The notes beneath the pieces are model-generated. The model searched no databases. It had not been told where the DNA came from and saw only the letters and a program-made list of their open reading frames with translations. From Sabellastarte sp. h YS-2021 (taxonomy: Eukaryota; Annelida; Polychaeta; Sabellida; Sabellidae): a stretch of DNA of 64,000 nucleotides. Location of the stretch: contig OZ024929.1 of assembly GCA_964017235.1 (NCBI GenBank), forward strand, positions 161,185,609 to 161,249,608. Reading direction: 5' to 3'. Position numbers and translations under genes: made by a program. Below, piece by piece: positions 8,507 to 61,194 of this stretch (positions within the stretch are counted from its first letter, which is position 1; every line of letters begins with the position of its first letter).

Positions 8507-9643
8507 ATGGCAGAGGCTGACAACCGGCATTATAACTTGCGTTCTGGTACTAGTACTGTACAACTCCCAGTGCAGATTCATATGTCTGATCCGGAATTTT
8601 TGACACAAATTTCACAGAATGATCAGAATTCAGATTCTGATGATTCGGCAAACTCTGAATTAGACTGTAGTGCGGTTATTGAAAATTCTGACACGGAACA
8701 TACCACCGGCACAGAAAGTAAACAAAGTACTTCCAGTACACCAAGTACTTCGCTTGCTGGGAATACTTTGTCGGATGTTGCCACTCAACAGGCAATAAAC
8801 GTTCAAATTCTAGCACAGCTTTCATCTATCAGTGATAGATTAAATGTACTTGAGAGTAAGAAAGTCAAAAAACATTCGGATCCGAAAAAAATCAAGGGAG
8901 TTTCCAAAAGTAAAGCCAGTACTAGAGTTACCCCGGTCACACTGCCACAGAATCAGTGCCCTACCTCCGGCATGCCAAGTTTACAGTCCATTAGACAAGA
9001 TGCATTCATTCAAAGCCAAGTGGACCAGAGATTGAGAGATTTAGCTCAAAATACTACTGCAAGTACAAAGTTAAAATCCCTTAGAGGGGGACCTGTGGAG
9101 GTCTTGGTTTCGAACCGGGTCAAGTGGCCACAAGAATTTGTACTTTCTGGTTTCAAAAAAGAATGAATCCAATATGACCAGTTGTCAGTAGTCCAATGGG
9201 TGGCTGGTTTCTGCCGGATCCTGAGAGAAAAAGTAAAGGAGCACATGCTTGATTATCTAATAGCTCTTATGGAGGATGCCAATGACTTCTCTTGGGATGC
9301 GGCACGGGCCAGCCATGCTGTCCTGCTTTGTAGAATGGAGCAAGGGGAAGTAAAAAATTATACTGAAACTGAGAAGTTGGACAGGATAAGGCGAGCCAAT
9401 GCTCAACGCCATGTAGCTAACACTTCTGAAGAGGGGTCAAATTTTCAAAAGAAAACTAAAAATAAGGTACTCACTTGCTCATATTACAATCAGGGGACAT
9501 GTATCCACCAAAAATCACATGACACAAAAGGTGTCACTTACAGACACATCTGTGCCCATTGTTTTCAACAGTTTGGCAAAACATACCCCCATTCGGAACA
9601 AAATCGTAGGAGTAAGACAAAGAAAATGACAAAAAACGAGTAA
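8507..9643 (+). pseudogene. E1 gag-like ORF1 with one in-frame stop
   Basis: Structural nucleic-acid-binding protein of E1. I chose the Met at 8507 (MAEADNRHYNLRSGT) over the upstream hydrophobic extension. The acidic/serine-rich N-terminus is followed by a basic linker, then a conserved region shared with E2 and E3 (QYDQL..QWVAGFC, DANDFSWDAARASHAVLLC, DRIRRANAQRHV). A C-terminal zinc-finger-like Cys/His cluster follows (CSYYNQGTC, then RHICAHC). A single TGA at 9164-9166 interrupts the same frame, at the position where E2 has Arg (RQRVTYDQL). This fits decay of a CGA codon. The ORF ends at TAA 9641-9643, immediately after a frameshift heptamer. Confidence 0.8.
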
Positions 9644-9673
9644 GCCAGGGTGGGTTCGAACCTGCTCCCACCC
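9631..9673 (+). promoter_or_regulatory. E1 gag-pol -1 ribosomal frameshift signal
   Basis: The heptamer A AAA AAC (9631-9637) is in the correct gag phase (ACA AAA AAC) and is followed by GAG TAA. After 10 nt comes a perfect 7-bp stem, GGGTGGG (9648-9654) with CCCACCC (9667-9673), closed by a 12-nt loop. A -1 slip enters the frame that stays open into pol (9637 onward). Confidence 0.75.
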
Positions 9674-12227
9674 GATTGTTTTCTACTAAAACTTATTTCA
9701 GCACACAGTTGCATTCTGCCAAGTCAGAATCATTTGTATCTAAACATCAAGCAATATGTTGGTTTCAACAAGCTAATGCCTTTGATACAGTTAAACCCAA
9801 TAAGTCTTATGCGCAAGCATTACTTTCCAATGTAGATGGCAATGTGCCTTCCTACCCGAGGGTCGAGAGGAATCTTGGGGCTACTAACAACACAAAGCTA
9901 GGTATAGCAGGCAACAACCAAGGTTACAGCAGGGCTCATACAGTAGCTAAGACCCACAAAGTTCCATATGTTAAGTTGCCCAGCAAAGCTCAGTCACAGC
10001 CCTCCAGTAAGTCTATATGTAAAAAACAAAATCACATTGTGGCAAGAAATTTTCCACAGTCTTGGGGTAGTGGCAGTGTGACCGAGGTGGTTGCTCAAAA
10101 TCCAGAAATACTGTCAAACAACAGGTTCCATGTACTACAACAGCTAGTTGCTGATGATCTATGTATGGTAGATACAGATACAAAAGACAGTATGGAAAAC
10201 ATGTCATGTTGCAGTAACCAGCCAACATTGGCTAACCAGGTCAAAAACCATTTGGTGGGAAAAAAAACAAAAATGGGATTTTTGATGGGGAATAAAACAA
10301 TTCATGCAACAACATAGTCGACTTTAAGGTCGCAACTGTCAGTCAAAGTACACCCAAAGATTGTCTCAGTATGCACCCGTCTATTAGACCACATTTGCAA
10401 AACAGAAACTCAGAACCTCAATATTTCAACTCCAGTGAGGAGTGTCTTTTTAATGCCGAGTATGATGCACCATATGACCATATGTTACATCTGATTAATT
10501 CTCAAAAAAACACCAAACAATTTGGTTTCTTCCCAAAATCTGCTTTGAAAATTTACCAAGGCCAGTCAGTTCAATGGGATCAGATACCCGACGTATTGCA
10601 GGCTCATAAGTTAATAAAAGATAGCAATCTCCCAAACTTCCTACATTGTCGTATACCTGTCCAATCTGGACTTAACATCAAAGCCTGGAGAGGCTACCTC
10701 AAAAATTACTGGGACCAGCAATTGTGTGATCTGCTTGAGTTTGGTTTTCCTCTAGATTTTGATAGAACTTGTCAGTTACACTCTACTGAAGAAAATCACA
10801 CTTCTGCTATCGAAAATATGCAGGACATTGGTAAATGTTTAGAAGAAGAGAGGTAATACCAAGCCATTTTAGGCCCTTTTGACACAAAACCTATAGATAT
10901 GCATGTCTCCCCGTTGTTAGTTAGAGACAAACAAAATTCTACCAGCAAAAGAACCATTATGGACTTAAGCTGGCCAAAAGGAGCATCTGTTAACAATGGA
11001 GTGGCCAAAGATACATACTTGGGTACCCCTTATGACTTGAATTATCCCTCTGTTGATTCCATAACGAATTCATTGCGAAATTTGGGGCCTTCAGCACAAA
11101 TCTACAAAATTGACATCAGCAGAGCTTTTAGACAAATAAGAATTGATCCTGGGGACATAGATCTACTAGGTATAAAGTTCCAAGATCAGTATTTTCTTGA
11201 TAGATCGGTAGCTTTCGGATTTCGACATGGTTCCCAAATTTTTCAGAGATGTACAGATGCCATTCATTACATTATGGCCCAACATGGCTTCCCATTATTG
11301 TACAATTATATAGACGATCTAATATATACTGGACTTCCTTCCAAAATCAACGAATCTTTCATATTTTTGAAGAAATTGTTGGGGGAGCTAGGATTAGACA
11401 TTAATCCCAAAAAATTGGTTCCACCTGCCACTTCAGTCACTTGCTTAGGTATACTGGTAGATTCGGTGCAAAAAACCATCTCCATTCCAAGCGAAAAATT
11501 GGCTGAAATTGCTCAGCTTTGTGCAGACTGGGGTTCCAAGACTTATTGTAGCAAAAGGGACCTTCAATCCCTCTTGGGGTCTCTCCTTTATGTTTCTAGA
11601 TGTGTAAAATATTCCAGATTCTTTCTGAACAGAATGCTGCAATTATTGAGAGATAACGTAAATGCAAGGAAGATATTAATCACTGCTGACTTTAAACATG
11701 ACTTAGCTTGGTTCAATTCCTTTCTTCCTCATTATAATGGTGTCACTTATTATGACCAATCCTATTGCCATTCAGAAGTACACCTGGATGCCTGTCTTAC
11801 TGGTTTTGGGGGTGCTCATGGTAACATGGTATATGCCCTACCCATCCCCAAAGGCTATCTCCACTATAATATTGCTCATTTAGAGATACTAAACATAATA
11901 GTAGCACTGAAAATATGGGCTACTCATTGGGCAAATAGACGAGTACGTATCCATTGCGATAATATGGCAGTGGTAGAGGTTTTGAACTCTGGCAGGGCTA
12001 GGGACCCTACTCTGGCTCTGATAGCCAGAAACATTTGGCTTATTTGTGCAATTTTCCATATGCAGATAGTAGTTGTACATATTCCAGGCCAGAGCAATGT
12101 TTTGGCAGATCTCCTTTCCAGGTGGCAATTTACTGCTGATAACTGTACACAGCTCGCTCATATATTGCCTGATTACAGTTGGATTCCAACGCATTTAGAT
12201 CTAACACTGTTAAACTATACAATATAA
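9637..12227 (+). pseudogene. E1 pol: reverse transcriptase-RNase H, frameshifted
   Basis: The polyprotein is read in the -1 frame relative to gag. The N-terminal linker runs to a stop at 10315-10317. The frame then shifts, probably in the A-rich tract at 10259-10275, and continues from about 10296. A TAA at 10854-10856 interrupts it where E2 has Arg. The RT core follows: IMDLSWPKGASVN, YKIDISRAFRQIRIDP, then the catalytic YIDD (NYIDDLIYTG). RNase H follows, with acidic residues in HLDACLTGFGG, HLEILN, HCDNMAVVEVL and NVLADLLSRW. No protease or methyltransferase domain is visible. The stop at 12225-12227 lies 18 bases before the YR start, in the same frame. Confidence 0.85.
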
Positions 12228-12245
12228 ATTTCTGTTGTAGATTCC

Positions 12246-13217
12246 ATGGGTAATGCAGCCCAGCTGGCCATGTCTGCTGTTGATAAGCTCAGGTCAGGAT
12301 TCCGTCCTGCCACATTGAGGCAGTATCGTAGGATGTGGTCAGACTTCATAGCTTTCCAGGTGGCAGCTGGGCTGTTTCCCTATCAGGTGAATATTCATTT
12401 GCTGTTGGCCTTTCTAGAATTTTTACATCATAATGGAATTTCTTCTTCTCACTTACAAAACCATTTAACAGCCATTAGGGCTTTACATATCTTGCACGGC
12501 CTTTATACCAGTGCCTTTAGAGATGAAAGATTGGCCCTATTTGTCAAAGCAACTAGGCTGCAAGCCCCCTTTAACCCTTCAATTTCTGCCCATCTAGATG
12601 TCACTTTATTACAACGTATTATCCAGCAATGCGACAGCATGCAGTTTCCAGTGATCTTCAAGCCTTTGTACCTGGTGGTTTTCTTTTCATTTCTTAGGTT
12701 ATCTAATGTTCTTCCACATTCAGTGGCCTCATTCGACCATACCAGACAGCTGGCTCGTGGTGACGTAATTTTTGGGGACTCTGGGGCAGTTTTACTGATA
12801 AAATGGTCCAAAACAATGCAGAACAGAAAGGATTTTACCACTGTTTCACTGCCACATTTGGCAGGTTTGAACCTGTGCCCCATTATGGCGCTTAGAACCA
12901 TGTTTGCAACATTCAAAGGCACTGATAACTCTCCAGTCTTTCTAATTCCCAGAAATAAAGGATTAGTTCCATTGACTGACTCTGTAGCTCGCAAACATCT
13001 GAAGGACATTTCCAAGGCACTTTCCTTGAGTAAAGTACTCACATTCCATGATTTCCGTAGGGGTGGGGCTGCTTGGGCTTTTTCCCAGGGCGTACCTCTT
13101 GAGCACATAATGAAGCATTGTACCTGGAAATCCGATGCTGTTTGGACCTACTTTTCCTCTGCTGTCACCACTACTTCCCCTGTAGCCCTTGCTTTTCAAC
13201 GTGCCCTACGTTCCTAG
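12246..13217 (+). CDS. E1 tyrosine recombinase
   Basis: An intact 323-residue phage-integrase-fold recombinase that would insert the circular cDNA. The SAM-like N-terminal domain (FRPATLRQYRRMWSDF) is followed by the catalytic domain. Box I Arg is in FLRLSNVLPHS, the HxxR motif is in FHDFRRGGAAWAF, and the nucleophile Tyr is in VWTYFSS. The Lys-bearing beta-hairpin region reads LLIKWSKTMQ. It is preceded by ttctgttgtag, which looks like a 3' splice acceptor, so a spliced subgenomic transcript may express it. It could also be reached by readthrough of the pol stop. This is the only undamaged gene of E1. Confidence 0.9.
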   Translation: MGNAAQLAMSAVDKLRSGFRPATLRQYRRMWSDFIAFQVAAGLFPYQVNIHLLLAFLEFLHHNGISSSHLQNHLTAIRALHILHGLYTSAFRDERLALFVKATRLQAPFNPSISAHLDVTLLQRIIQQCDSMQFPVIFKPLYLVVFFSFLRLSNVLPHSVASFDHTRQLARGDVIFGDSGAVLLIKWSKTMQNRKDFTTVSLPHLAGLNLCPIMALRTMFATFKGTDNSPVFLIPRNKGLVPLTDSVARKHLKDISKALSLSKVLTFHDFRRGGAAWAFSQGVPLEHIMKHCTWKSDAVWTYFSSAVTTTSPVALAFQRALRS

Positions 13218-13833
13218 GTCCTTCTTGGGTTTGGGTGCTTCTTATTTTCACCCTGTACACTGTGAATTCACAGTACCTTTACTATGATACAGATGCAAAT
13301 GCTAATACTTTAACTTTTTAACTTTACCCTCTTTCATGGGTTATCAGCTGGAAACACACTGACTAGCATTTCTGGCCATTTTACCTTGCCTTGCTTCGTT
13401 TGTCAGTTTGACCTTGACCTCGGATTTGACCTTGGAGGTCATTGCTCCAGGACCTGTCTTCATGACCTCATTGTTGCTGGACTGGCCGGCGGGTTGGGCA
13501 GAATTTCATAGAAACCCATGGACTTTAGACAGATAATTTCATATTTGCTGCCCAGCCTGCTTGCTTTTCTTTCACCGTTCGTCATGTTGGGTTTTGACCT
13601 TCCATATTTGAAGGTCAGCTGCATGACCTTGGAGTTCACTACGGTTCAAGTTCCCTTTACTTAGGTCACTTGCAAGGCAGGCTTATTTGGCCAGTTAGGG
13701 ACAAATACATAACTTAATTTCAATTGTTTTGAATCTATTTTAAATGTTATATTGTGCCTGATAAAAATTGGGTAGAAAAATAGAAAAATAAATGTTATAT
13801 ATCCCATGTTGCCTCTTTACTTCTTGGGAACTG
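13218..13833 (+). promoter_or_regulatory. E1 3' region with nuclear-receptor half-site cluster
   Basis: Non-coding region between the YR gene and A2. I count nine TGACCT/AGGTCA hexamers between about 13409 and 13672, several extended to TGACCTTG. Chance expectation for both strands over 616 bases is about 0.3. The first three are nearly adjacent (13409-13440). Comparable clusters occur in the same place in E2, E3 and E4. Confidence 0.6.
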
Positions 13834-14050
13834 TTCGGGACCACATGAGGGTGTGGGCAAGGTCAGTTCTGAAGAAGTTGGTTACTACTTTAAATCATGT
13901 TGTTTGGTCACTACTTTAATTTATTTTACTTTGTATCAATACTATGTGGCTGCTTCTGATTGGACAGCCTTTGGCCCTCGTCTGTAAACCCCTGTCATTC
14001 TTCCATTTTGAAGTTGGAGGCACATGGGCACACAGCAAGAAAAATATTTT
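13834..14050 (+). repeat. E1 direct repeat A2
   Basis: Second copy of A1 (8183-8399), 217 bases, no difference seen. Preceded by the 15-base block acttcttgggaactg, which recurs at 14346-14360 and marks the 3' end of the element. Confidence 0.9.
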
Positions 14051-14360
14051 CTCCCCCTTTTAACCCATCCCATGTCTTTTGTATTCAGTAACAATATTAT
14101 ATGTATCAAATTTTTCGTGACAAGATTACTGCCTGTAGATATTTTTCAGATCACTATAACTGAGGATTGTGGGACTGGTGCATCCTTGGCATATTCATCC
14201 AAGTCTTGACTAGCTAGTCTTTGGCTTTGCTAGTAGTGCTTTCCTATGGACATAATATTGGTGTATTGCTTCACACTTGGTTGTGTTTTGATGTGGAACC
14301 TGTGTGGAATTTTCATGTGATGTCCGAAAGGAAAGATGTACCAGAACTTCTTGGGAACTG
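14051..14360 (+). repeat. E1 3' terminal segment ending in short B repeat
   Basis: 295 bases with no counterpart elsewhere in E1, then the 15-base B repeat (14346-14360). In E2 the equivalent spacer is only 50 bases and B is 546 bases, so the two elements partition their termini differently. Confidence 0.5.
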
Positions 14361-14626
14361 GAAATATCTTAAGCAGAGGTTTATCTGAAAGTAGATGTGT
14401 TTTTTTTTTTAGTTTGAGGGTCACTAAATTCAAGGTAAGTATAGGTAAAGTTAAGGCAGCCTTAAGCAAGACGTTTAGTTATAAAGCCAAGTTTAGTGCA
14501 ACCAAAATGTGGTACCTTAGAGAGTACATATTTACAGGTAAATAATTAAGAAATCATTGTTACTATAAACTGTACAAAACCATACAATGCCCATCAGATA
14601 CTTTACAATGTTCCAAGCAATGGGAT

Positions 14627-15172
14627 ACAGTCCCCACCCCAAGGCAGTAAAACACAGAGTTGAGGGCACTTTGTTTAATACATAACAAATATATATAATA
14701 TACATATCTATACTAAAAGTTATTTACAGGTCAGTAAAAATATACAGATTCTGAGTAATGTAAATGCAGTAAATAGTGACTAGTAAGTTAGAGTTCATAG
14801 TTCATAAGAAGTCACTAGAATCATTAATGAGTTACTAAATACACGAAGAAGTGACTGATAAGTTAAAGTTCATAGTTCATAAGAAGTCACTTCAGAAGTT
14901 TACCAGCTTGAAATATTTAAAATACTAAAATAAGAGAATACCAAGAAGTCTACCCGAATCCAGCAAGAGGGAATGACCTTGAAAGGTCACATGATGTCAA
15001 ACCAAGGTGACCCCTGCTCAGGGTCGCCCAGCAAAGTAGCAATGACCTCACAACTGGAGGTGATGATTTGAAAAGTGTTGAAGTTAAGGTCACCCTAAGG
15101 CTGGAGACCAGAAGACCTAAGGTTTACAAGATTGTGAAAAATACATGACATACAGCAATATAATAAGCCCTC
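14627..15172 (-). repeat. E2 direct repeat B2 (3' terminal)
   Basis: 546 bases matching 15473-16018 with an offset of 846 and no difference seen. The outer end reads GGGGACTGT in sense. It contains five TGACCT/AGGTCA half-sites, including TGACCTTGAAAGGTCA. Confidence 0.93.
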
Positions 15173-15222
15173 TGACCCCACCTAGAGAGTGGTTATTACA
15201 TTCTCCAGGGAGGGTGGGAGGG

Positions 15223-15473
15223 AAATTCAAGTTCTTAGTTAACATGTCTTCCACTCAATGTCAAGTTTCAAAGTGACTTTGTTTCAAGGGGAGAAGCACA
15301 GTGAAACAGGGGCAACCAATGAGAATGTGTTGTTTACTGGGGTACCTAGCAACTGACATTGCTTTACATAACCATTCACATTAGACTGGTACCTAAAGTG
15401 TTTATAAGGTACCAGGTAAGATACTGTCTGTGGGGCAGGACTGACATCTGGGGCGCCTGGACGCCCCAAGTGA
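15223..15473 (-). repeat. E2 direct repeat A2 (internal)
   Basis: About 250 bases matching 21167-21417. The junction with B1 (15472/15473) reproduces the head-to-tail junction expected in the circular intermediate. The 50 bases at 15173-15222 lie between B2 and A2 and are not repeated. Confidence 0.92.
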
Positions 15474-16018
15474 CAGTCCCCACCCCAAGGCAGTAAAACA
15501 CAGAGTTGAGGGCACTTTGTTTAATACATAACAAATATATATAATATACATATCTATACTAAAAGTTATTTACAGGTCAGTAAAAATATACAGATTCTGA
15601 GTAATGTAAATGCAGTAAATAGTGACTAGTAAGTTAGAGTTCATAGTTCATAAGAAGTCACTAGAATCATTAATGAGTTACTAAATACACGAAGAAGTGA
15701 CTGATAAGTTAAAGTTCATAGTTCATAAGAAGTCACTTCAGAAGTTTACCAGCTTGAAATATTTAAAATACTAAAATAAGAGAATACCAAGAAGTCTACC
15801 CGAATCCAGCAAGAGGGAATGACCTTGAAAGGTCACATGATGTCAAACCAAGGTGACCCCTGCTCAGGGTCGCCCAGCAAAGTAGCAATGACCTCACAAC
15901 TGGAGGTGATGATTTGAAAAGTGTTGAAGTTAAGGTCACCCTAAGGCTGGAGACCAGAAGACCTAAGGTTTACAAGATTGTGAAAAATACATGACATACA
16001 GCAATATAATAAGCCCTC
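15473..16018 (-). repeat. E2 direct repeat B1
   Basis: Second copy of the 546-base B repeat, directly downstream of the YR stop (16039) in sense. It carries the same half-site set as B2. Confidence 0.93.
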
Positions 16019-16038
16019 AACCCCAACAGTAGGAGCAT

Positions 16039-17124
16039 TTATGCATTAATAACAGTAGCAAGTGATAAAGCAAGGCTTTCACCAGAAGAGTGGTCAGCCT
16101 GAATATAGCGCCAGATACAATCTGAGCTCCAGGTACCATGACGCTGTATTTGTTGAATGGGGATGTGTGCATTATACGCAAATGTCGCCCCTGACCTTCG
16201 AAATGAGTGAAACGTATAGAAGTGAGGGTTCAAACCCAAGGTCATATTGATGGATTTCAAACACTTTCTGATCTTACTATCAGTGATGGGCTGCCAGCCC
16301 GATTGTACATTAACTTGGAAGGCAGAGTGATCTGCAGACATGGGATATAAAACCTGGAGGGCCTTAAGGGCCCTGAAAGGACAAATTATTCTATTTTTTA
16401 ACTTTGGTAGTGAAATGACTTGAGCCGTATCTCTAGTTTGGATGGTCTTAGACCATTTGATGAGGACTTTAACCATTTTCTTAGTGAAAAATAGATCCTG
16501 TCCAGTAAGATGCCTGGAGGGGTCAAAACCTGACACAGAGTGAGGGGCCAAGTTCGAAAGTCTAAAAAATCCAAAAAATCCAGTCAGAAACACCGCTCGA
16601 AGGACTTGGCCACAGTTGAATTCTTGACAGGCTAAAGATATTTTTTCAAGGCCATCTAGGTCAATGATGTTATGAGAGGTCAAGCTCAGAGGTCGATTGA
16701 TTCTCAGAGATTTTTGGAAATATTTGATCTTTTGATGGTCCAGGATGTGGAAAGGCAAGTCATACAAGACAAAGCAAGCCTTTATGGCTGACACATAATT
16801 CGATATCATAGCAACAGAACATTTGTTATGTACAAGACACTCCAGAAATGACAAGATTACTTGGACATTAACTCTGGCCACTGATACATCCATACAAATA
16901 CAAAAGGCCAGGAACACCTTGAACATTCTGAAGTAGGCTTGTCTCGTCTTAGGCCTGAAGGCAGCTTGAGTTCTAACAGCTGCTTTCTTAGACAAGGATT
17001 TCAACACCACATTGCCTGAAACAAAGCATAGTAACTGCATTTTAGTAACATGTATATTAGCAATGACGCCCCTGCCCAGGGGCTTACAGGGAAGAACACT
17101 TGTTACACAATTATTAATTAACAT
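16039..17124 (-). CDS. E2 tyrosine recombinase
   Basis: An open 361-residue recombinase. The region matching other family members starts at MQLLCFVSGNVVLKSLSKKA, so the first 28 residues may not be translated. The sequence ctttgtttcag, a good 3' splice acceptor, sits just inside this Met and suggests a spliced start. Box I Arg is in GFFRLSNLAPHS, the conserved Lys region is VLIKWSKTIQ, HxxR is in FHSFRRSGATFAY, and the nucleophile Tyr is in CIWRYIQ. All catalytic residues are present. It would recombine circular cDNA with the target. The gene is followed at once by B1, and pol lies 50 bases upstream in another frame. Confidence 0.93.
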   Translation of the reverse strand: MLINNCVTSVLPCKPLGRGVIANIHVTKMQLLCFVSGNVVLKSLSKKAAVRTQAAFRPKTRQAYFRMFKVFLAFCICMDVSVARVNVQVILSFLECLVHNKCSVAMISNYVSAIKACFVLYDLPFHILDHQKIKYFQKSLRINRPLSLTSHNIIDLDGLEKISLACQEFNCGQVLRAVFLTGFFGFFRLSNLAPHSVSGFDPSRHLTGQDLFFTKKMVKVLIKWSKTIQTRDTAQVISLPKLKNRIICPFRALKALQVLYPMSADHSAFQVNVQSGWQPITDSKIRKCLKSINMTLGLNPHFYTFHSFRRSGATFAYNAHIPIQQIQRHGTWSSDCIWRYIQADHSSGESLALSLATVINA

Positions 17125-17173
17125 ATTTATCTATACAGATGGCCCCTAGCAAGGAACACACACTGAAATGACA

Positions 17174-19804
17174 TTATAATTCTGGATCAATTTCCAGAAA
17201 TTCCATACTAACAGGGACCCATATGGGATCCTGAACATGACTCTGTAGTTCAATAACATCTTTGTAACAACCTGTCCAACGAGACAGTAAGTCAGCCACC
17301 CTGTTGTCCAGCCCCCTGATGTGGACATACTGAATGTCCATATCTGCCAAGGAACCGGCATACCATATGTTCCGGGCACATGCCCCAAGGAAGGGATCTC
17401 TTGCTCTGCCTGACCTGAGAACTGTGACCACTGCTTCATTATCACACTTTATTAACACTTTTCTACCTGCCCATTGGGCCTGAAACAATCTAATTGACAG
17501 GAGTATGTTTGTCATTTCGAGGTGGACGATGGACCAGTTCATATGGCCTTCAGGTATGGGAAGATGGTAAACATACCTACACCAACGCCCCCCGAGGCCC
17601 TTCAAGCAGGCATCCAGCTCAAGAGTATGATCAATGGGCCTGTGGTCATAAAGTGACACCCCATTGTAGAGTGGAAGGAACTTGTCAAACCATCTAAGGT
17701 CACGTTTGAACTCAGGGGTCAAAGTGATTTTTTGTGCAGCATGACCAGATCTCAGGAGGGCCAGCATTCTGTTTAAAAAAGCACGAGCTGGCTTCACACA
17801 CTTATGGACATACAAAAGCATGCCAAGTATGGACTGCAGTTGCCTTTTAGTACATGATGTTTTGCCAAGCCATTGACGCACAGTGTCAGAAATCTGACGC
17901 AACTTTTCAGGGGGGATGGAGACAGTGCCATTCTCAGTATTGATTAATATGCCCAGGCACACAACTTGAGTACTGGGGGGTACTAGCTTGCTGTCACTGA
18001 TGGTAAGGCCCAGGTCCCCCATAAGCTGGAATAACGCGTTGAATGACGCATGCGCAACGTCAGTGACGCCCATCCCGACGTAATCGTCTATGTAGTCGAT
18101 GACGCAAAAACCTTTCTGACACATGACGTGACGCACAGCGTCGCTGAGGCGTTGAAAAATCTGGCTCCCGTGACGCGTCCCGAACGGAAGGCACGTATCA
18201 ACGTAAGCGTGACGCCACTGGAGCCCCAAGAGGTCAAAATCCCCAGGATCAACCCTCACATGTCGAAAAGCTCTGCTTACGTCAATCTTGTATAAGAGCG
18301 CGCCCCTACCTAAGCGTTTGAGCTGTGATGTAATATCATCTATAGTGGGGAAGGTCAAAGCAAAAGGACTATTCAAATATGTGTCCTTGTCAATGCCAGC
18401 ATTAACAGAAGCCCCAATGGGCCAGCTCAAATCAATAATGACCCTACGCCTGTCAGAGTTTGGCTTGTTTCTGGTCATGAACGGTGACGTGTGGCAGTTT
18501 TGAATTGGATTTTCTTTGAATGGCCCTAATATGGCCCCATACCTGCTTTCCTCCTCAATATAGGCATCCACATCTTTGGGAAACTGTGTGGCTGAGCTAT
18601 GGTTACCTTTTTCACTTTGTAATGGGCAATCCCTGTTGAAGTCAAGGGGGAATCCGAACTTAAGCAGCTGCAGCAGCTGCTGATCCCAGTAACCCTTCAG
18701 ATGTTTCTCCCATGCTTCGACATTAAGCTGTGAGACCACAGGTATGCGAGCCCCCAAAAAATTGGGCTTACCAGACTGCCTGACTGTGTCATGAATGTCA
18801 AGTAAGGATTTTTTTGAGGTATTACAAGTTAGGTCGCCAGGCATTACTTGCTCACCCAATGGAATGAAGCCAAATTGAAAGTCTGATTGTTCACTCCATT
18901 CTTTGAAAATTTGACTATTAGCCCCAATGGGGACCTGAGATTTGTTGAATTGTTGAAAATGCATGATACTATTGGCGAATTTTTCTTCCACACCAATTGA
19001 ATTCACATCATACAGAGGTACAGGACCATCCAGACCCACCTTTTCATTTATGGTGGAGTTCACCCTGCTCTGATTTTTGAGATTTGAACCCGAGACCATG
19101 TTGTTACTGTGAGTTACAGGACACAAACCCATGGACCTAGCAATGACCGTTTTACAGGGGTTTTCATGCTTCTGGGAGTTCTCACTACCTTTGCAACCCA
19201 TGTCTCCATTGCAGACGAGATTTGTATGATTGTTATTACTGACATTTTGCACTTCATTGGATTCCGGGTTAACCTGGCAATCCTGGTGAGGATTCAAACC
19301 CAAGGCCATGTTGGTTAACTGTTGAGTATTTTTAACGTCATTGACATTCAAACCACGACCAATACATTTACCAGGTTCAATTGTACTCTCTATGTGGGTA
19401 CTCTTTGCATTATCAAGTTCGAGGGAGTCCGAACGCCGCCTAGGGTGGACAACAGGGTGGTAGTGCAGTTTATGCTGGCCAGTAGGTATTTTGTTTGTAA
19501 CCTTCACACTGGGGCTGCTAGCTCGCTGAAAAATTCGAGTTTTGACCAGAATTTCTGAATTTTCAAAAATATTTTTTGGCTTTTTTGCAAGCAAATTGTC
19601 AATGTCTCTGGGTCTAACAGCCGAGTTATAAAAGAACCTAGCCACATATTTGGTGTTTTTGGCACTGCCCTCAATGGTATTTGAATTACAACTTGATTCA
19701 TTGTCATCACCGGTGAGTTGATCAGTGTTAGTGATTTTTGGACTACCCGCGACAGATACATCTGCACAGCTGCTCCATCCTAATGATGGGCAGCTGCTTG
19801 ATCG
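17174..19804 (-). CDS. E2 pol: reverse transcriptase-RNase H (via -1 frameshift)
   Basis: Open for 876 codons from the frameshift point (codon CGA 19804-19802) to the stop at 17174. No good ATG precedes the conserved part (ARFFYNSAVRPRDIDNLL), so frameshifted gag-pol translation is the natural route. The long hydrophilic linker has no protease motif. The RT core has IIDLSWPIGASVN, YKIDVSRAFRHVRVDP and the catalytic YIDD (DYIDDYVGMG). RNase H has acidic residues in LELDACLKGLGG, HLEMTN, KCDNEAVV and NRVADLLSRW. The gene has no stop or frameshift. The GC-rich stretch 18040-18300 is unlike the AT-rich surroundings. Confidence 0.93.
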   Translation of the reverse strand, partial: RSSSCPSLGWSSCADVSVAGSPKITNTDQLTGDDNESSCNSNTIEGSAKNTKYVARFFYNSAVRPRDIDNLLAKKPKNIFENSEILVKTRIFQRASSPSVKVTNKIPTGQHKLHYHPVVHPRRRSDSLELDNAKSTHIESTIEPGKCIGRGLNVNDVKNTQQLTNMALGLNPHQDCQVNPESNEVQNVSNNNHTNLVCNGDMGCKGSENSQKHENPCKTVIARSMGLCPVTHSNNMVSGSNLKNQSRVNSTINEKVGLDGPVPLYDVNSIGVEEKFANSIMHFQQFNKSQVPIGANSQIFKEWSEQSDFQFGFIPLGEQVMPGDLTCNTSKKSLLDIHDTVRQSGKPNFLGARIPVVSQLNVEAWEKHLKGYWDQQLLQLLKFGFPLDFNRDCPLQSEKGNHSSATQFPKDVDAYIEEESRYGAILGPFKENPIQNCHTSPFMTRNKPNSDRRRVIIDLSWPIGASVNAGIDKDTYLNSPFALTFPTIDDITSQLKRLGRGALLYKIDVSRAFRHVRVDPGDFDLLGLQWRHAYVDTCLPFGTRHGSQIFQRLSDAVRHVMCQKGFCVIDYIDDYVGMGVTDVAHASFNALFQLMGDLGLTISDSKLVPPSTQVVCLGILINTENGTVSIPPEKLRQISDTVRQWLGKTSCTKRQLQSILGMLLYVHKCVKPARAFLNRMLALLRSGHAAQKITLTPEFKRDLRWFDKFLPLYNGVSLYDHRPIDHTLELDACLKGLGGRWCRYVYHLPIPEGHMNWSIVHLEMTNILLSIRLFQAQWAGRKVLIKCDNEAVVTVLRSGRARDPFLGACARNIWYAGSLADMDIQYVHIRGLDNRVADLLSRWTGCYKDVIELQSHVQDPIWVPVSMEFLEIDPEL

Positions 19805-19810
19805 TTTTTT
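19766..19810 (-). promoter_or_regulatory. E2 gag-pol -1 ribosomal frameshift signal
   Basis: In sense, gag codons GCA AAA AAC contain the heptamer A AAA AAC (19810-19804) in the canonical X XXY YYZ phase. A 6-nt spacer (19803-19798) follows. Next is a hairpin: GCAGCTGC (19797-19790) pairs with GCAGCTGT (19773-19766), and inside it CCATC (19789-19785) pairs with GATGG (19779-19775). There is one bulged A, and the 5-nt loop contains the gag stop codon. The -1 frame runs uninterrupted into pol. Confidence 0.85.
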
Positions 19811-20874
19811 GCCTGTTTTTTGACATTACAATCCTTCTCGGGATGGTTAAGTTGCCTACCCCCCTTGAGGCAATGAGCACATATGTGCCTTTGCAACTTC
19901 CCATTATTTTCATGGTCACCTGTATGTGAACAAACACCTGTCTGAAAACTTTTACAAAACCATGGCTTCCTACCCGAGAGATCTGATGGCTTAGCCCAAC
20001 CACCCCTACTTGCAACATGCTTTTGAGCATGGGCCCTTCGGATCCGATCAATTCGGTCCATGTCTTCCCACTGGAGGGAACCCCGCTCCATTTCGCAAAG
20101 TAAGACAGCATGTGCTGCCTTAGCACTCTGCCAAGAAAAGTCTGTGGCATCCCCCATCAGATCACTCAAGTAGGAAACCATGGTATACCTTCTATCATTA
20201 CAACTTTCCTCCATGATGTTTTTACAAAAACCTTGCACCCACTGGGTGAGCGTCAACTGGTCGTATGTGACCCTTTGCCTACTGACGCCACCCAGTATGG
20301 CCTCGTGAGGCCATGGCACTTTGTTTTTTACATTAACCTCAACACTGCCTCCTCGTTTTGATTTTAATTTGACAGAACTATCACTACCTGGGAGGTGTGA
20401 ACTGTGGTTTAACTCCCTAAGCCTCCTGTCAACTTTTTTCTGAATAGCATTGGACTTTAATTGTTTCATGGAGGGGGTGTCACTTTCGTCTGAAGACGAA
20501 TCACTGGTTACATAAGTGGGCCTACTTTTTTTACTTTTGCTACTTTTTTTGCTAGAACTTGACAAAACAGTATCTGTACTTAACTTTCCTGAAGTTGACG
20601 CCTGAGCTGTCTGCTGTGTTGTGGCTACCACTTGATCTTCAACCAGATCCAACCTGTGTGACATCCTCTTCAGCTGCTCCAGGATTTCCATCTGTATCCG
20701 CTGTCCGCCCAGATCCTGACTGTGATCTGTAGCAAGTGACTCACTTGCAACGGCAGCATCTCGTACAAGTCCCTGGGTAACATCATTCTGTTCACTCACA
20801 AATTTACACTTCTTCCCCGTGGGTGGGGCATGTCTGCTTTTACAGTTTTTACACCTTTGTTTGTTGTCAGGCAT
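19780..20874 (-). CDS. E2 gag-like ORF1
   Basis: A 364-residue nucleic-acid-binding protein from Met 20874 (MPDNKQRCKNCK). That start is preferred to the in-frame Met at 20925 because E3 gag also begins right before the same zinc-knuckle-like motif. N-terminal CX2CX3HX7C (CKNCKSRHAPPTGKKC) is followed by a short coiled-coil-like stretch (ILEQLKRMSHRLDLVEDQV) and a Ser/Lys-rich linker. The conserved core follows (YDQLTLTQWVQGFCKN, ATDFSWQSAKAAHAVLLCEM, DRIRRAHAQKHV). A second Cys/His cluster (FCKSFQTGVCSH, RHICAHC, HPEKDC) ends the protein. It is open throughout and stops at 19780 inside the frameshift hairpin. Confidence 0.9.
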   Translation of the reverse strand: MPDNKQRCKNCKSRHAPPTGKKCKFVSEQNDVTQGLVRDAAVASESLATDHSQDLGGQRIQMEILEQLKRMSHRLDLVEDQVVATTQQTAQASTSGKLSTDTVLSSSSKKSSKSKKSRPTYVTSDSSSDESDTPSMKQLKSNAIQKKVDRRLRELNHSSHLPGSDSSVKLKSKRGGSVEVNVKNKVPWPHEAILGGVSRQRVTYDQLTLTQWVQGFCKNIMEESCNDRRYTMVSYLSDLMGDATDFSWQSAKAAHAVLLCEMERGSLQWEDMDRIDRIRRAHAQKHVASRGGWAKPSDLSGRKPWFCKSFQTGVCSHTGDHENNGKLQRHICAHCLKGGRQLNHPEKDCNVKKQAKNDQAAAHH

Positions 20875-21166
20875 TTTTGAATCAAATATAAATCTCTGTC
20901 TCGTCCCTTTGTAACCAATATGCAAAGCCTGAGGTTGTCAAGACGACTCAATCAGTTCACAGAAGGCGTCAAAAAGTTGACGTGTCACAAACAGTTCATC
21001 CAGCCACTGCACTACTGGACTTCAGAAATCACAAACATAAAAGCACTTGTTGCTTGCTAAATGACCGTTCCATTTTATATACACTATTTTACACTTTAAA
21101 ACCTAAAACAGTATAAAAAACTAAAGAAAATAAAATCAGAAAATAAAAAGTTCAAGTTCCTCAGTA

Positions 21167-21417
21167 AAATTCAAGTTCTTAGTTAACATGTCTTCCACTC
21201 AATGTCAAGTTTCAAAGTGACTTTGTTTCAAGGGGAGAAGCACAGTGAAACAGGGGCAACCAATGAGAATGTGTTGTTTACTGGGGTACCTAGCAACTGA
21301 CATTGCTTTACATAACCATTCACATTAGACTGGTACCTAAAGTGTTTATAAGGTACCAGGTAAGATACTGTCTGTGGGGCAGGACTGACATCTGGGGCGC
21401 CTGGACGCCCCAAGTGA
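21167..21417 (-). repeat. E2 direct repeat A1 (5' end, probable promoter)
   Basis: Matches 15223-15473. In sense it starts with CACTTGGGGCG, and a small hairpin (GGGGCG/CGCCCC) lies at the tip. It also holds a TATAAA (plus tttata 21345-21350) and an inverted CCAAT box (plus ccaat 21260-21264). Promoter function is inferred from its position upstream of gag. Confidence 0.8.
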
Positions 21418-24400
21418 GAAAGTTTAAGTACCCATCATACTTTTCCTAAGAAGGTACCCAAATATCCCTACTTCAGAAATATTCTTAAAGTTTTATTCTC
21501 AGTTGCATTGTTTCATTAAAAGTGTTTAATCCACTTGTCATCCATAACAAAAGTCTCATGTAGATAATAAACTGTAGAAGACTTTTGTGGCTTGCACAAG
21601 CCTGGTATGCCACTTTGTTTGTTTGTTGCTGTTTTTCCAATGAGGGTTGTGTTTCTAGGGAGGCAGAATACTTTAGAGATCCACTCAAGAAGGGGTAAAG
21701 GTGCTCTTTGTATCCATAAAATTAAATTGATTTAATGTTTAGACTTTTATTGCTATTGTTCGTTTCATTTTCAAACTTTTCACACTGCTTATTATTTTGT
21801 ATTAACAGAGTGTAAGACCCTTAGACAAAGTCAAAATTTTTGGCATTATAAATCATGTACAGGTCATCAACTATAGATCCTCGGACAGCAGAAACATTTC
21901 ACCCTTGGTGATTATGTACATGGAAAAGAAAAGAATTCCTTTGATTCAATAAGCTTTGCTGGTACAAGGCACACATAGTTAAAAAAAGGGTGCTGTCTTT
22001 TTTTAAATTTTATTGACATAAACATAACACTTACAGTAATAATATATTAGCTCTGTAATGCAAAGAAAGCAACTTTTATGTTATTAGTACAACAAATATA
22101 CATTAATCGATGTTCAAAGGTGACAAATCATGCCTAATCATGAGATAAAAATAGTTGGCTACTGCACAGCCAGTGAGTTCATCACCCAGCCTCTTGACTT
22201 TTAGTGACAATGTTAAACCTTCTTCAAAATAAATATTCAGATTTATACATTTGGGCAGCACAATCTGATCAGGTGCCTACTAATTCAGTTCATGGCTACC
22301 TAAATACTTCAATGCTGCATCATTTCTGTTTTACGTGAAATTACTAGGTATGATTCTTTGTTTACTATCCATTCAATACCTCACATGTAGATATAGCAAG
22401 TTTACACCATTCCATACTGTCATCATGAGCTACACATGAACCAAAAAAATATTTATCCGGATTCTTTTGGGGCTTGATGCGTTTTGTATTTTAATGCGTT
22501 TTGTATATCCATAAGCTTTATTAAGTAGGAATTTGCATTGGTTAGTATGCATTCAACACAACACAGACGACCATTTCAACATGCAGCAGACCTTTAAAAT
22601 GTTTGAAAAAAACCTACTACAAGCTGTCACATGCTAACTTTAACGTACACGCCCTAGGGGTGAAAGGGGTGAGGAATGGCTATATATACAGGGCTGGTCG
22701 TTTTTTAGATATGAGCTCTCTTTTTGAGAGTGATAAGGACAAGGCGGTGAAGCAAAATTAATATATGAATTATGACCACAAGGAATGGTGTGAACAAGCC
22801 TATCATTTGGTTTCTGTGGAACTTACAGGTATAAGCCACCATTTTGGATGTGTTAAGTTGGTAGTTGTATTTAGTAAAGTATTGACAAAAAGTAAATTTT
22901 ACCTCAACATATATTGTGCATATTTTGATATAAGCTCCCTCTTATTGGTTCTAATGTTGTGAGATAAAAAAATTAAAGTAAATTTATTTTTAATGGAAAT
23001 GTGCATTAATTTAACTGGGGTAAATGTATTATTGTTATATTTGTTCAATAAGTTTATTATTGTCTTTAAATCCAAACTTTATCCACAAAAAGTTACTTTG
23101 CTGAGAACAAAATACTGCTTCCAGTGTAAAGTACAAACAAAATAACATTTAAAATCCATGGATATTTACTTCATGGTTCAGGAAATCCAGTTTCTTTACA
23201 AACATCCATGTCGCAATGCAATGCAGTCTACATGGCTTAATTAATGTCAACAAAGACAAAACAGCACCTTTCCTTTGAAAGTGGACTGGTTACCATTCTA
23301 ACATCTTCCCATATCATGTTCAATTTCATTGTGAATGTCACTTTTGAATTAGTAATGCATGGGATGACACCTGAATTTTAAACTTCAATAAATTTTCAAT
23401 AAAAGAATATTGGTTCGGGATTTTACATGTACATAATACCAGATAAGAAGCACAAGGCAGTGTGCTATCATAAGAAGATGAAACAGGCTTCAAAAATGGA
23501 TGTAGTATAACCTCATTCTCTAAAACAACTGAGAAATGTAAGGACATGTTCAATTTGTTAATTTGTTTTCATATTACTTGAGATATTTTAAGGACAGGTG
23601 AAAAACTTCAATAGATTACAATCGCTACTGACTGAACAGTATGTCAAAATAACTATACACATAATATTCTTTGCTCTATACACACAATACTGTCACAATA
23701 TCTTTTTCAATGTGAATTGCTATGTAGGAATTCTGTTATATTTAATACTCTGCCAATATATTCGCATTTGTTTCGAGAGACTCAAATTGCTGAACAAATT
23801 TCAGCGTTTCTAATAAGTAAGTAGCTGTATGTTACTCACAAATAACTGAGTAATTTATGTCACAGACTTTACACACAGTAAATGGTAGTTAATGGAGATA
23901 TTAAACAACACAACATAACAAGTATATGTTTCCCATATATCTAGCAGTTATATATAAAATTAAAAATATAAATAATATTGGTTAAATATTTTATCACAGA
24001 TACATTGCTGAAAGAAGATACACAAATTGATTTGGTTTCAATGTCTACGTTATTATTTCACTTGGCACCAGTCTGGCATACTTAGAACATAAACTATCAG
24101 TCCACCCCAACAATTTATTCTGTTCTTGTTAACTACTTTGTGAATATGTCCCTGTAATTTGCTAAACATCATTTCAAATGTACCATATTTCACTGTATAA
24201 ACAGTCCCTCTGTATTAAACACACCCCCCCCCCTCCATTTTGCAGTTCCAAGATTCTGAAAAAGATGCATTTTAGTACATCCCCAATCAAATAGCTGGTA
24301 ACAGAAAATAAGTTCATTAAAACAAAACATGGCACTTTCGATCAAGAACACCTAAAATCTAAAAAATAGGAGATAAAAGTTCACACGTTATTCAGATTTA

Positions 24401-24818
24401 AGGTTTGTTTTTAACATTTTCAGTTCTCCAATAATTATATATAATGATACTAGGATGAAGGTTGTAAAGTATCTAATTATCGCCCATTGCAGCAGGACAA
24501 TTGAGTTGTTTTTATCTATAACAGTAGCCCCCACTTTTTAAAAAGGATATGCCCCAGGGTGTTTATGCAAATAATTACATGTGTCTGCATAATATAACCA
24601 GTAATAAATGAGAATTACCACTCAAATAAATGAGCATTCCATCAATTAATGACAATTCCCTCAAATCATTATTTACAATTCATTATCATTTTTTTATCAT
24701 TTCATCAGGAGTAAGATTATGGATTGCAGATTGTAAGTCCTTGGCAATAAAACATGCAATAACCTTTCTTTTAACCAAACTTTCACTCAAGTCACCAGTA
24801 CCACATAATTATAACCAC
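21418..24818. other. intergenic between E2 and DTHD1 3' end
   Basis: About 3.4 kb of AT-rich DNA with no recognisable ORF or repeat family. The DTHD1 3' UTR should begin at 24818 going left. An AATAAA on minus (plus tttatt 24114-24119) is a weak candidate polyadenylation signal. Confidence 0.4.
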
Positions 24819-24926
24819 TTAGTCCAAGCCTTTCCGTTCTCGTTGGAAGTTCTTCTCCATATCTTTGATGTCATGGGCCAAATCATCTCTACCACCCTTG
24901 TGAAGTGCAAGACACAGCAGTTTTGC
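24819..24926 (-). CDS. DTHD1: DTHD1 exon 14 (terminal)
   Basis: Encodes the last 35 residues (AKLLCLALHKGG to RERKGLD) and the TAA stop (24819-24821). The acceptor is ttgttctag. It joins exon 13 in phase 0 and finishes the last helix of the death domain plus a charged tail. Confidence 0.85.
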   Translation of the reverse strand, partial: AKLLCLALHKGGRDDLAHDIKDMEKNFQRERKGLD

Positions 24927-57753: not shown

Positions 57754-58757
57754 TCATAACTTATCATGAAGCATTTTTCGAAAAGTTTGAGCAACCTGGC
57801 AACCAGCAGAGGCAGATGGGCGAATGTAGGTCCAAACGCATTCAGACGCCCAGGTGCCATGTTCCTTTATCTCTCTCACTGGTATACCTAACTCATAGGC
57901 CAGAGAGGCACCTGAGCGCCTGAAGGCGTGGGATGTGTAAAAATTTGATGGTAGATGAAGACACTGATTAATTTTAGCTAAATTTTTCCTTACTCTCGTA
58001 TCAGTTAGTACCTGCCAGCCAGAAGCTGTGCTAATCTGGAAAAGAGGGGAATTTTTTGCTGGCTTGTATAAGGCCATAATCTTCTCAAGAGCATGGTAAG
58101 GACATATAGATGAGACCCCCAATTTTGGCAATATGACCATTTTATATTGGTCTCTAAACTGTATGGTCTTGGACCATTTAAGTAATAAGCGAATCTCATT
58201 TTGCAAGAAGAAAAGGTCCCCCCAGTAAAATGCTTTGTACTGTCAATCTCTGCTTTCGCATGTGGGGCGATATTCGACAGGTGGAAGAAACCAAAGAACA
58301 CAGTCAATATTACTGCCTTATATACCCAAGGATCTGAAAACTGGTTGCAAAGCATTACCATCTTCTTTAATGTATTTATATCTATGGTATTACATTTGGG
58401 CAATGCCATTGGCCTATGCAACTTCAACGATTTAACAAAATAACTAACTTTTGGGTGTTCCCATGACCCATATTCTAAGTTATGAACAATGAACATGGCT
58501 TTGATTGCTGCAATGTGATTTTTGGTCATATTTACTGACACACCATTTTCCACCAAAAACTCCAGATACGACAAAGCTACTGACACAGAAATTTCTGACA
58601 ATGGAACTTTAGCAAACATACAAAATGCCGCAAATGACCTGAACAACATGACATAACACTTAAAAGTTCTTGGCCTAAATGCAGACTTGGCTCGCACTGA
58701 GGCTTTTCTGGCATATTCCGTCAAGGCTGCATTCTCTGAAAGTACAAAGTATAGCAT
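57754..58757 (-). pseudogene. E3 tyrosine recombinase, frameshifted and Arg-deficient
   Basis: Starts MLYFVLSENAALTEYARKAS; an acceptor-like ttgtactttcag lies within the first codons. N-terminal SAFRPRTFKCYVMLFRSF is intact. Box I reads GFFHLSNIAPH, so the catalytic Arg of E2 (GFFRLSN) is His here. The frame changes near 58200. The second frame carries LLLKWSKTIQ, SHAFRRSGASLAYE (HxxR) and CVWTYI (Tyr). Non-functional for two independent reasons. Confidence 0.88.
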
Positions 58758-58771
58758 CTGTAGAGGAATTA

Positions 58772-61188
58772 TTACAATGTGTAATCAACATCTAGCATAG
58801 CAACATCTACTGATTGCCAAATAGGATTCTGTATAAATTGATGTAAATGGGCAACATTTTGCTCCGAATACTGACATCTGGACAACAAGTCTGCAACAGT
58901 GTTGTCTTTACCCAAAACATGCACATACTGTAAGCTAATGTCTGCAGTAGCTGCTAAGTACCAGATGTTATGCGCGCATGCGCCCAAGAACGCATCCCTG
59001 GCTTTCCCAGCATTGAGAACCTTCACAACAGCATCATTGTCACATTTGACTAGTATTCTTGTCCCGGACCACGCGCGACCAAACAAGCACAGTGCCATGA
59101 GTATGTTCACCATCTCTAGGTGAACTATATCAAGATTCGCAAAACCTCGGTTTATGGGAAGGTGGTAAACATATTGACCCCAACAACCTCCCATACCCAT
59201 CAAACAGGTGTCGAGCTCCAATGTGGAGTCAGATTTCTTGTGCTCATACATGGAAATTCCATTGTATGATGGAAAGAATTTGTCAAACCAGGCCAGATCT
59301 CTCTGAAAATCATCATTGAGAATGACCCTATTTGGATTGGCAATGGTGCGTAACTTCATAAGCATCATGTTTAGGAAATACCTTACTGGCTTGACGCATT
59401 TATGAATGTAAAGTAAGCTGCCAAGGAGTGATTGTAGCTGACGTTTAGTACAAATCTTCTTACCTCGCCATTCTTTGACCATAGCTCTAATGACTTCCAG
59501 TTTCTCAGGCGGAATCGCTACGGTACCCTGGATGGTATCAATCAGAATTCCAAGGCATACTGCCCTAGTTGTCGGTGGAACCAACTTACTCATACTCACC
59601 GTGAGACCTAGTTGCGTCATGACGTCGAGGAGAGCGTCAAAGGATTTACGCGCGACGCTAGGCGTGCCGAATCCCAGGAAATCATCTATATAATTGATGC
59701 CGTTGATGCCGCATGACGCACCGCGTCGCGGGTTCTCTGGAAAAATTGGCTTCCGTGGCGACTGCCGAACGGAATTCTCGTATCAACGTACGTGACGCCC
59801 CAGTTGACGCCTAACAAGTCATAGTCGCGGGGGTCGACGCTCAAGTGCCTACATGCCCTACTGACATCCACTTTAAAAATATGTGCCCCCTTACCAATTT
59901 TGACCAACTCTTGCGTCAAGTCGTCAATTGTTGGAAACGTCAATTTAAATTCTCCTCCCAGGTAACTATTCTTTTCCACCCCAGCATTGACAGACCTCCC
60001 CTTTGGCCAGCTTAGGTCCAAAATAACCCTCCTGGTATCTGAATTTTGTTTTGGCCTTGTCATGAAGGGGGAATAGTGAAGATCTTTAATAGGTGGTTCA
60101 TCAAATGGGCCTATGATAGCACCCAACGCCTTTTCTTCTGCAATATATTTGTCTACATGCTCTGGAAATTCAGATGCTGATTTGTGATTATTTTTGTCAT
60201 GGTCAAGTGGACACATTCTGTTGAATCCCAAGGGAAAACCGAACTTCAGACATTCCAATAATTGTGTGTCCCAATACCCATGCAAAAGTTGCTCCCATGC
60301 CTGTATGTTGAGTTCCGACTTAACAGGTATGCGTGCACCCAAGTAATTGGGGAGGTCATATTTTTTTACCTCTTCGTGCATGTCAATGGGATTACTGAAC
60401 GCTATCTTGCTTGTGTGCTTGCTTTTGGGCATTATGGGATCGGTTAAAGGAATGTAGCCAAATTTGGCCTTGGATTGTTGGGACCACAGATCAAAAGCCA
60501 TACATTGATTCATACTAACCGACCTATCTTGATCACTGAAGATCACTGAATTGATAAATTTTTCATCATCACTGCTGTTGATATCAGAAAGCAATTTGTG
60601 GGGGCCACCCACTGTGTCACTATCCGTACTGCTTTTGTCAGGCTCGTGTGAACGTTTGTGAGAGGTGATATCAGTGTCAATTTTTCCCGTCATGTCCAAT
60701 GAATGGTAATTAGTGCTGGCAGCCCTATTCTTTGAATCATCTTTGAATCAGCTTTCAGACTCTATGTGTGAAGGGACCTCGCCCTGCTTATTGCCATTAT
60801 GACAATTAGCCCAAAAAACCCGAGTTTTGCAAGTGGTTGACACATTGTTCCTGGCTACATTGTTATTTTTAATTGCCCTTGCATATGACCTGGCTTTACT
60901 CGCATGTGCTGTGGCATTGTAAACCTTGACTGCTTGACTACAAGGACGAACCAGTAGACTCTTAACGTCTACGGGTTGATATTTTTTGCTGTAAAACACA
61001 CGACGACACTGTTTGAAAACAGAAGGTGAACCTTCTCCCGACATGACCTTGACCTCATCACTATTACTCACGACCTTGTGAATGTTTTTACATGCAACAT
61101 TGGTCTTAGATGTGGCACTAGTACTCAAATTACTGACATTGACTGAGCTGCCCATCCTAGGTTTTGTGGAAGGACAGCACCTTACTCG
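58772..61188 (-). pseudogene. E3 pol: RT-RNase H, broken
   Basis: Enters in the -1 frame at 61188. MGSSVNVSNL (61155) is followed by a linker with the RRVFYSKKYQPVDVKSLL block that matches E2. A TGA (60748-60750) interrupts the frame. It continues through ILDLSWPKGRSVN and FKVDVSRACRHLSVDP. A small deletion/frameshift falls just before the catalytic NYIDDFLGFG near 59690. The second frame (58772-59620) has RNase H residues in LELDTCLMGMGG, HLEMVN, KCDNDAVV and NTVADLLSRC. Confidence 0.88.
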
Positions 61189-61194
61189 TTTTTT
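61147..61194 (-). promoter_or_regulatory. E3 gag-pol -1 frameshift signal
   Basis: Gag codons ACA AAA AAC contain A AAA AAC (61194-61188) in phase, followed by GAG TAA. After 9 nt, GCTGTCC (61178-61172) can pair with GGGCAGC (61153-61147), with one G-U pair and an 18-nt loop. The -1 frame continues into pol. Confidence 0.75.

Follow-up and report, generated by a model that had tools for sequence, protein, structure and literature searches.

A candidate -1 ribosomal frameshift cassette at the gag end of a Ngaro-like tyrosine recombinase retrotransposon lineage

Introduction

The element E2 carries its pol open frame in -1 relative to gag, which raises the question of how its reverse transcriptase is produced. 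E2 lies in a window of 64,000 nt (the whole stretch of DNA that was analysed), together with two further elements of its lineage, E1 and E3, both degenerate. An earlier note on this DNA had read the gag end of E2 as a -1 frameshift cassette. Here that reading is examined at E2 itself, compared with related gag ends across the same genome, and weighed against other ways in which pol could be expressed.

The element E2

The open frames and repeats of E2 are as follows:

19780..20874, minus strand: gag ORF from the first ATG (stop-to-stop frame 19780-20937), from the ORF list, with a Cys/His cluster seen by eye close to the C-terminus
17174..19825, minus strand: pol open frame, -1 relative to gag, with RVT_1 at residues 493-625 and an RNase H-like end by eye
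16039..17130, minus strand: putative tyrosine recombinase (YR) open frame, from the ORF list, with Phage_integrase below cut-off
21167..21417, minus strand: split direct repeat A1, 251 nt, identical to A2
15223..15473, minus strand: split direct repeat A2
15473..16025, minus strand: split direct repeat B1, 99.6% identical to B2 over 554 nt
14627..15180, minus strand: split direct repeat B2

The repeats stand in the order A1-ORFs-B1A2B2, with 42 nt between A2 and B2. The pol frame matches RVT_1 in Pfam at 33.6 bits (cut-off 29.6) and ends, judged by eye, about 40 residues past the RNase H-like motif. The match of the YR frame to Phage_integrase (E 1e-05, 25.8 bits) falls under the curated Pfam cut-off of 27.1; HSFR, HGTW and then a Tyr can be recognised in it by eye. 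Gag has no Pfam match, and no methyltransferase turned up in the Pfam scan of the three frames at E <= 0.01. A DIRS-like assignment was considered and rejected, as no inverted repeat of at least 40 nt, and hence no DIRS-type inverted terminal repeat of that length, occurs in 10000-26000. Ngaro-like elements have the layout A1-[gag, RT/RH, YR]-B1A2B2 according to the accessible sections of PMC9210276 and PMC8547959, and E2 resembles them in this layout and in that no methyltransferase was found. By its repeat layout, its RT ORF and the methyltransferase result, E2 fits a Ngaro-like YR retrotransposon. It differs from amphibian Ngaro-like elements in having no SGNH hydrolase ORF, since no further minus-strand ORF of at least 100 aa follows YR.

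Within 14627-21417 the repeats show 99.6-100% identity and none of the gag, pol and YR frames is interrupted, and several copies of E2 elsewhere in the genome are 98-99% identical in pol. Judging from the intact ORFs and the near-identical repeats and copies, the E2 family has probably been active recently.

The gag end of E2

At the gag end the minus strand reads GCA AAA AAC GAT CAA, followed by GCAGCTGC-CCATC-ATTAG-GATGG-A-GCAGCTGT, in which the following features are found:

19804..19810, minus strand: slippery heptamer A_AAA_AAC, read as GCA AAA AAC, in X_XXY_YYZ phase with gag
19798..19803, minus strand: spacer GATCAA, 6 nt, read off the sequence
19766..19797, minus strand: predicted stimulatory hairpin of 13 bp (8+5) with one bulged A and the 5-nt loop ATTAG, from folding
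19780..19782, minus strand: TAG stop codon of gag, located in the loop of the hairpin, from the sequence and the ORF list

The earlier note had placed the heptamer in exact gag phase, the spacer at 6 nt and an 8+5-bp hairpin with a single bulge downstream, and all of this is borne out, the bulge being an A. Its statement that pol is open in the -1 frame only is equally correct: the -1 ORF spans 17174-19825, and in the +1 frame a stop codon occurs 65 nt from the heptamer start. Folding of 19740-19815 (76 nt; ViennaRNA) gave a minimum free energy of -27 kcal/mol (z -2.85, with 1 of 200 shuffles equally good), and the 8+5-bp hairpin is present in both the minimum free energy and the centroid structure. 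Rfam returned a single sub-threshold match over 19650-19900 (E 0.39), located away from the hairpin.

To assess chance, one 89-nt E2 segment was shuffled 20,000 times by dinucleotides. An in-phase A_AAA_AAC arose in 0.23% of them and any classical heptamer in phase in 3.2%, whereas a classical heptamer followed by a fold at or below -18 kcal/mol arose in one shuffle (0.005%). A second AAAAAAC lies just upstream in E2 (19815-19821, minus strand), where it is read as AAA AAA C, out of slippage phase, and so constitutes a natural internal control.

The two degenerate elements of the window carry comparable gag ends:

9631..9637, plus strand: E1 gag-end heptamer, the same as in E2
9648..9673, plus strand: E1 hairpin GGGTGGG...CCCACCC, of unrelated stem sequence
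61188..61194, minus strand: E3 gag-end heptamer, the same as in E2
61147..61178, minus strand: E3 hairpin GCTGTCC...GGGCAGC

The fold z-scores of these hairpins (-1.49 for E1 and -1.41 for E3) are unremarkable and prove little alone.

Conservation of the heptamer

The frameshift reading of the cassette, which the E2 sequence supports, is made much stronger by comparison within the genome. This comparison covers one genome (1.79 Gb) and takes in E2, copies close to it and relatives whose gag identity is as low as 54%. The genome has at least 54 matches to E2 pol, at least 94 to E1 pol and at least 150 to E3 gag (best candidates scored), and from these 147 gag-end loci were picked by hand for spread (L001 being E2). 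A gag match was present in 143 of the 147, the other four (L069, L080, L081 and L087) being excluded; with E1 and E3 of the window added, 145 gag ends were available. An in-phase A_AAA_AA[C/T] was found in 128 of them, as AAAAAAC in 122 and as AAAAAAT in 6. Single-linkage clustering of these 128 at 85% DNA identity gave 42 clusters, each of which is represented below by one member. Since the families share ancestry and come from a single genome, such counts are not counts of independent events. A single-protein query found no relatives in viral contigs.

The 17 gag ends that were not counted are diverse. Three have an in-phase heptamer by sequence that was missed by the anchoring (L019, L030 and L033, with L030 ending in AAT), and two have the heptamer letters out of phase with the aligned gag (L020 and L036). 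One A has been lost in L016, L027, L090 and L095 and an extra A is present in L078, L100, L104, L105 and L109; L037 and L079 carry point changes, and in L112 the region is lost. None of the 17 shows a synonymous change of the third-position A in the codon before AAA or of the Lys codon.

Three of the extra-A copies, L100, L104 and L105, show that the slippery run mutates: in them gag and pol form a single frame that stays open up to the end of the examined DNA (1051, 1222 and 511 aa, respectively), so that Gag-Pol would arise with no need of frameshifting and no free Gag would be produced. In L109 a stop follows after 111 nt. L104 and L105, on different contigs, are 98.1% identical over 796 nt without gaps and each is gapped relative to L103, to which L104 is closer (99.0%) than to L105; their extra A may have been copied once or have arisen twice.

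The codon before AAA varies in residue among the 42 representatives (TCA 17, ACA 10, GCA 9, CCA 3, CAA 3) and always has A as its third base, a constancy that is partly circular because the representatives were selected for the heptamer. For comparison, up to 45 preceding gag codons of the same representatives use AAA for 144 of 220 Lys, AAC for 27 of 106 Asn and an A-ending codon for 97 of 263 NCN. The final C of the heptamer is also constrained by pol, as a T before GA gives TGA in the pol frame. AAAAAAT in place of AAAAAAC occurs in L030, L072, L083, L113, L114, L141 and L143, where, with GA next, TGA appears in the pol frame; because most families (that of L141 is an exception) have a CpG here, AAAAAAT looks like methyl-C decay.

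Conservation of the hairpin

A fold is found at the same place throughout the lineage. In 45-nt windows placed at -5, 0 and +5 nt from the heptamer end, the mean fold z-score of the 42 representatives was -3.30, -3.48 and -3.15, respectively, as against values within 0.5 of zero at offsets of -120 to -15 and +15 to +195. When the best single hairpin was sought for each representative, trying start positions 3-14 nt after the heptamer, 39 of the 42 had one of -10 kcal/mol or better beginning 3-8 nt past the heptamer (median -18), the other three being L085, L129 and L136, which have no hairpin of -10 kcal/mol.

The position of the stem is kept across clades in which its sequence is not. Arms of the E2 and E3 types are GCTGTCC/GGGCAGC and GCAGCTG/CAGCTGC, and those of the E1 types GGTGGG/CCCACC or CGAGTGC/GTACTCG; in the E1 clade (7 representatives) the arms are unrelated in sequence to those of the other clades and still pair. 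Without any folding, the 9-nt 5' arm forms 7.3 bp on average with its own downstream piece (at least 7 in 31 of 42), compared with 4.8 bp in a control window (at least 7 in 4 of 42). Arms of the E1 clade form 6-8 bp with the partner they belong to, and a swap across clades leaves a mean of 4.2, whereas swaps within the E2/E3 group still give 7.0 bp versus 7.4 for own partners, because these arms are shared. Column-by-column covariation was mixed (MAFFT alignments, 500 shuffles, some 3' arms being misaligned): alignment A2 was matched by 1 of 500 shuffles in cells paired and by 4 in covariation score, A3 by 37 and 20, and A4, which is not above shuffles, by 197 and 117.

The gag TAG indeed lies in the hairpin loop in E2 and some relatives, but this is no general trait, as in 28 of the 42 representatives gag stops 3 nt past the heptamer, ahead of the hairpin. 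A pseudoknot was considered and rejected, pairing of that type showing no excess over shuffles: the complementarity between the loop and the 50 nt downstream being 4.43 versus 4.39 in shuffles (37 loops of at least 4 nt, of which 8 reach 6 bp).

Reading frames and alternative routes to pol

The frame boundary lies near the heptamer. Upstream of the heptamer the -1 frame is open for no more than 48 nt in 37 of the 42 representatives, and downstream it is open to the end of the examined DNA in 33 and, in E2, over the whole of pol, while the +1 frame is closed within 107 nt in 40. In 8 of the 42 pol closes early, and these look decayed. From +57 nt onwards pol is under purifying selection, with a pooled pN/pS of 0.54 over 199 non-independent within-cluster pairs; in some such pairs purifying selection is not seen (omega 0.93, 1.07 and 1.36). 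The pairs used for pN/pS were within-cluster pairs plus a few chosen ones, as no usable omega is available between cluster representatives (one pair), because the N-terminus of pol diverges fast.

Of the other routes by which pol could be reached, translation from a spliced mRNA that skips the gag stop is the least unlikely, although we consider it very improbable. The context of the gag stop is slightly donor-like in many families (CGA/GTAAG, CGA/GTGAG), and the YR ORF of one clade starts at acceptor-like sequence, so that these elements may splice elsewhere. The donor-like letters are, however, missing in E2 and others (in 8 of 42 there is no GT in the first 14 nt), and where present they reach low scores by an approximate matrix (-1.8 to 2.7). 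An acceptor scoring at least 6 within 150 nt past the heptamer occurs in none of the 42, by a simple matrix that is insensitive, as just 2 of 20 pol/YR junctions reach 6. Splicing would moreover leave the phase of the heptamer and the spacing of the hairpin unexplained.

These two properties also weigh against slippage on the A run during transcription or reverse transcription, through which a mixed RNA pool, partly in the pol frame, would arise. The run is 6-7 long and copies with one extra A do occur (L100, L104 and L105), but slippage of this kind requires neither a codon phase nor a final C nor a nearby downstream hairpin, which makes it a very unlikely source of pol.

Just as unlikely is an independent start of pol, by internal initiation or by reinitiation past the gag stop. 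The first pol-frame ATG lies less than 100 nt downstream of the heptamer in 20 of the 42 representatives and upstream of it in 3, which would suit such a start; its position is not conserved, however, ranging from -78 to +501 nt, and 3 of the 42 have none in the examined open frame (two of these closing early). In E2 itself the first pol-frame ATG is found 501 nt downstream of the heptamer, and most of the stretch measured between E2 copies, where many pairs have a pN/pS of about 0.1-0.4, precedes it. Purifying selection ahead of that ATG argues against independent initiation there.

Stem-loops can serve packaging, cDNA synthesis or recombination, and the E2 stem arm GCAGCTGC is a palindrome, but that the hairpin serves the element's nucleic acid in such a way, with the heptamer incidental, is the least probable reading of all, given that the position of the hairpin is tied to the heptamer across clades of differing stem sequence and that the reading frames switch there. 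None of these rivals accounts jointly for the heptamer phase, the hairpin spacing and the frame boundary.

The junction between pol and YR

At the pol/YR junctions of the E1 clade (L148-L161), 13 of 14 copies have, by eye, a pyrimidine-rich tract ending in AG, within about 15-30 nt past the end of pol, where the YR ORF starts. In L150, L152 and L154 the tract occurs without an in-frame ATG at the YR ORF start. YR in the E1 clade may be translated from a spliced mRNA. Two such tracts lie in the window:

about 12225-12245, plus strand: acceptor-like tract, by eye
about 58755-58775, minus strand: acceptor-like tract, by eye

Of the 20 junctions scored with the simple acceptor matrix, 4 lie above 95% of shuffles. 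No conserved strong splice donor was found near gag (in one clade and E2), with weak candidates in the 5' leader.

Discussion

The cassette is conserved and not a product of chance: in divergent families the heptamer stands in phase and at a short distance from a hairpin, arms of unrelated sequence still pair, and the -1 frame opens near the heptamer. With these sequence features it is very probable that a programmed -1 ribosomal frameshift signal sets the ratio of Gag to Gag-Pol in this Ngaro-like YR retrotransposon lineage. A ribosome reaching the end of gag would run into the hairpin while A_AAA_AAC is occupied by tRNA-Lys and tRNA-Asn. For a minority of ribosomes, the two tRNAs would shift back by one base and pair with AAA AAA, after which translation would go on in pol, through reverse transcriptase and RNase H. 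The reverse transcriptase would then be a minor product, fused to Gag, in an amount given by the efficiency of slippage; both the slippage with its efficiency and Gag-Pol as a functional product are what we infer from the cassette. The mechanism is an ordinary one, namely that of classical retroviral and LTR elements.

Taken together with the pol/YR junctions, a broader plan can be suggested tentatively, and it is rather doubtful. A YR lineage might follow a retrovirus-like scheme, in which -1 frameshifting for Gag-Pol and splicing to an acceptor at the YR start would yield differing protein levels from one transcript. The frameshift module might date back to the divergence of YR and LTR elements or might have been acquired from an LTR element.

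How reverse transcriptase is produced from the overlapping ORFs of YR retrotransposons is a matter that the literature searched leaves undescribed, and a compact, conserved cassette makes the question testable. The 42 diverged signals form a natural series for studying which stem-loop features are needed to stimulate slippage, and the cassette can serve as a marker for annotating intact YR elements.

The full-text literature searched yielded no description of ribosomal frameshifting in YR, DIRS or Ngaro elements, in agreement with the earlier note, which knew of no well-described -1 signal for YR retrotransposons; the founding (classic) Ngaro and DIRS papers lie outside the scope of that search. 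The accessible sections of PMC3783388, PMC3266345 and PMC9210276 mention ORFs that overlap or are frameshifted (for the most part RT and YR) and give no recoding signal, while those of PMC8547959, PMC6681497 and PMC2685390 are silent on recoding, and the word 'slippery' is absent from the accessible text of all six papers (on YR elements or Ngaro-rich). Specifically for Ngaro-like elements, the available portions of PMC9210276 and PMC8547959 describe no frameshift signal. In a 2016 review (PMC5009743), 'Ngaro' and 'tyrosine recombinase' go unmentioned in the accessible part. For a -1 cassette in YR retrotransposons the literature searched thus offers no description, an earlier mention being possible in the founding papers outside its scope.

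Comparison with known systems

Retroviral -1 cassettes of the A_AAA_AAC type include the gag-pro sites of MMTV and HTLV. The E2 cassette is like them in its gag-phase heptamer, short spacer and downstream RNA structure and in that Gag would be fused to the next frame. It differs in that the E2 lineage has a stem-loop without excess pseudoknot-type pairing, in that the gag stop of E2 sits in the hairpin loop, and in that the host element is a YR retrotransposon.

Animal LTR retrotransposons offer the second comparison. According to the accessible sections of the 2016 review, pol lies in the -1 frame of gag in 28 of 51 animal LTR retroelements (a 2003 survey), a classical heptamer being present in many of them, and on mammalian ribosomes A_AAA_AAC ranks with the most shift-prone heptamers (PMC5009743). 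E2 shares with these elements the succession of gag and a pol in -1, and many of them also have classical heptamers, whereas E2 has split direct repeats and a tyrosine recombinase. Plant sireviruses, lastly, resemble the E2 lineage in having a conserved, covarying stem near the gag terminator, but differ from it in being LTR elements with pol in the +1 frame (PMC5009743, accessible sections).
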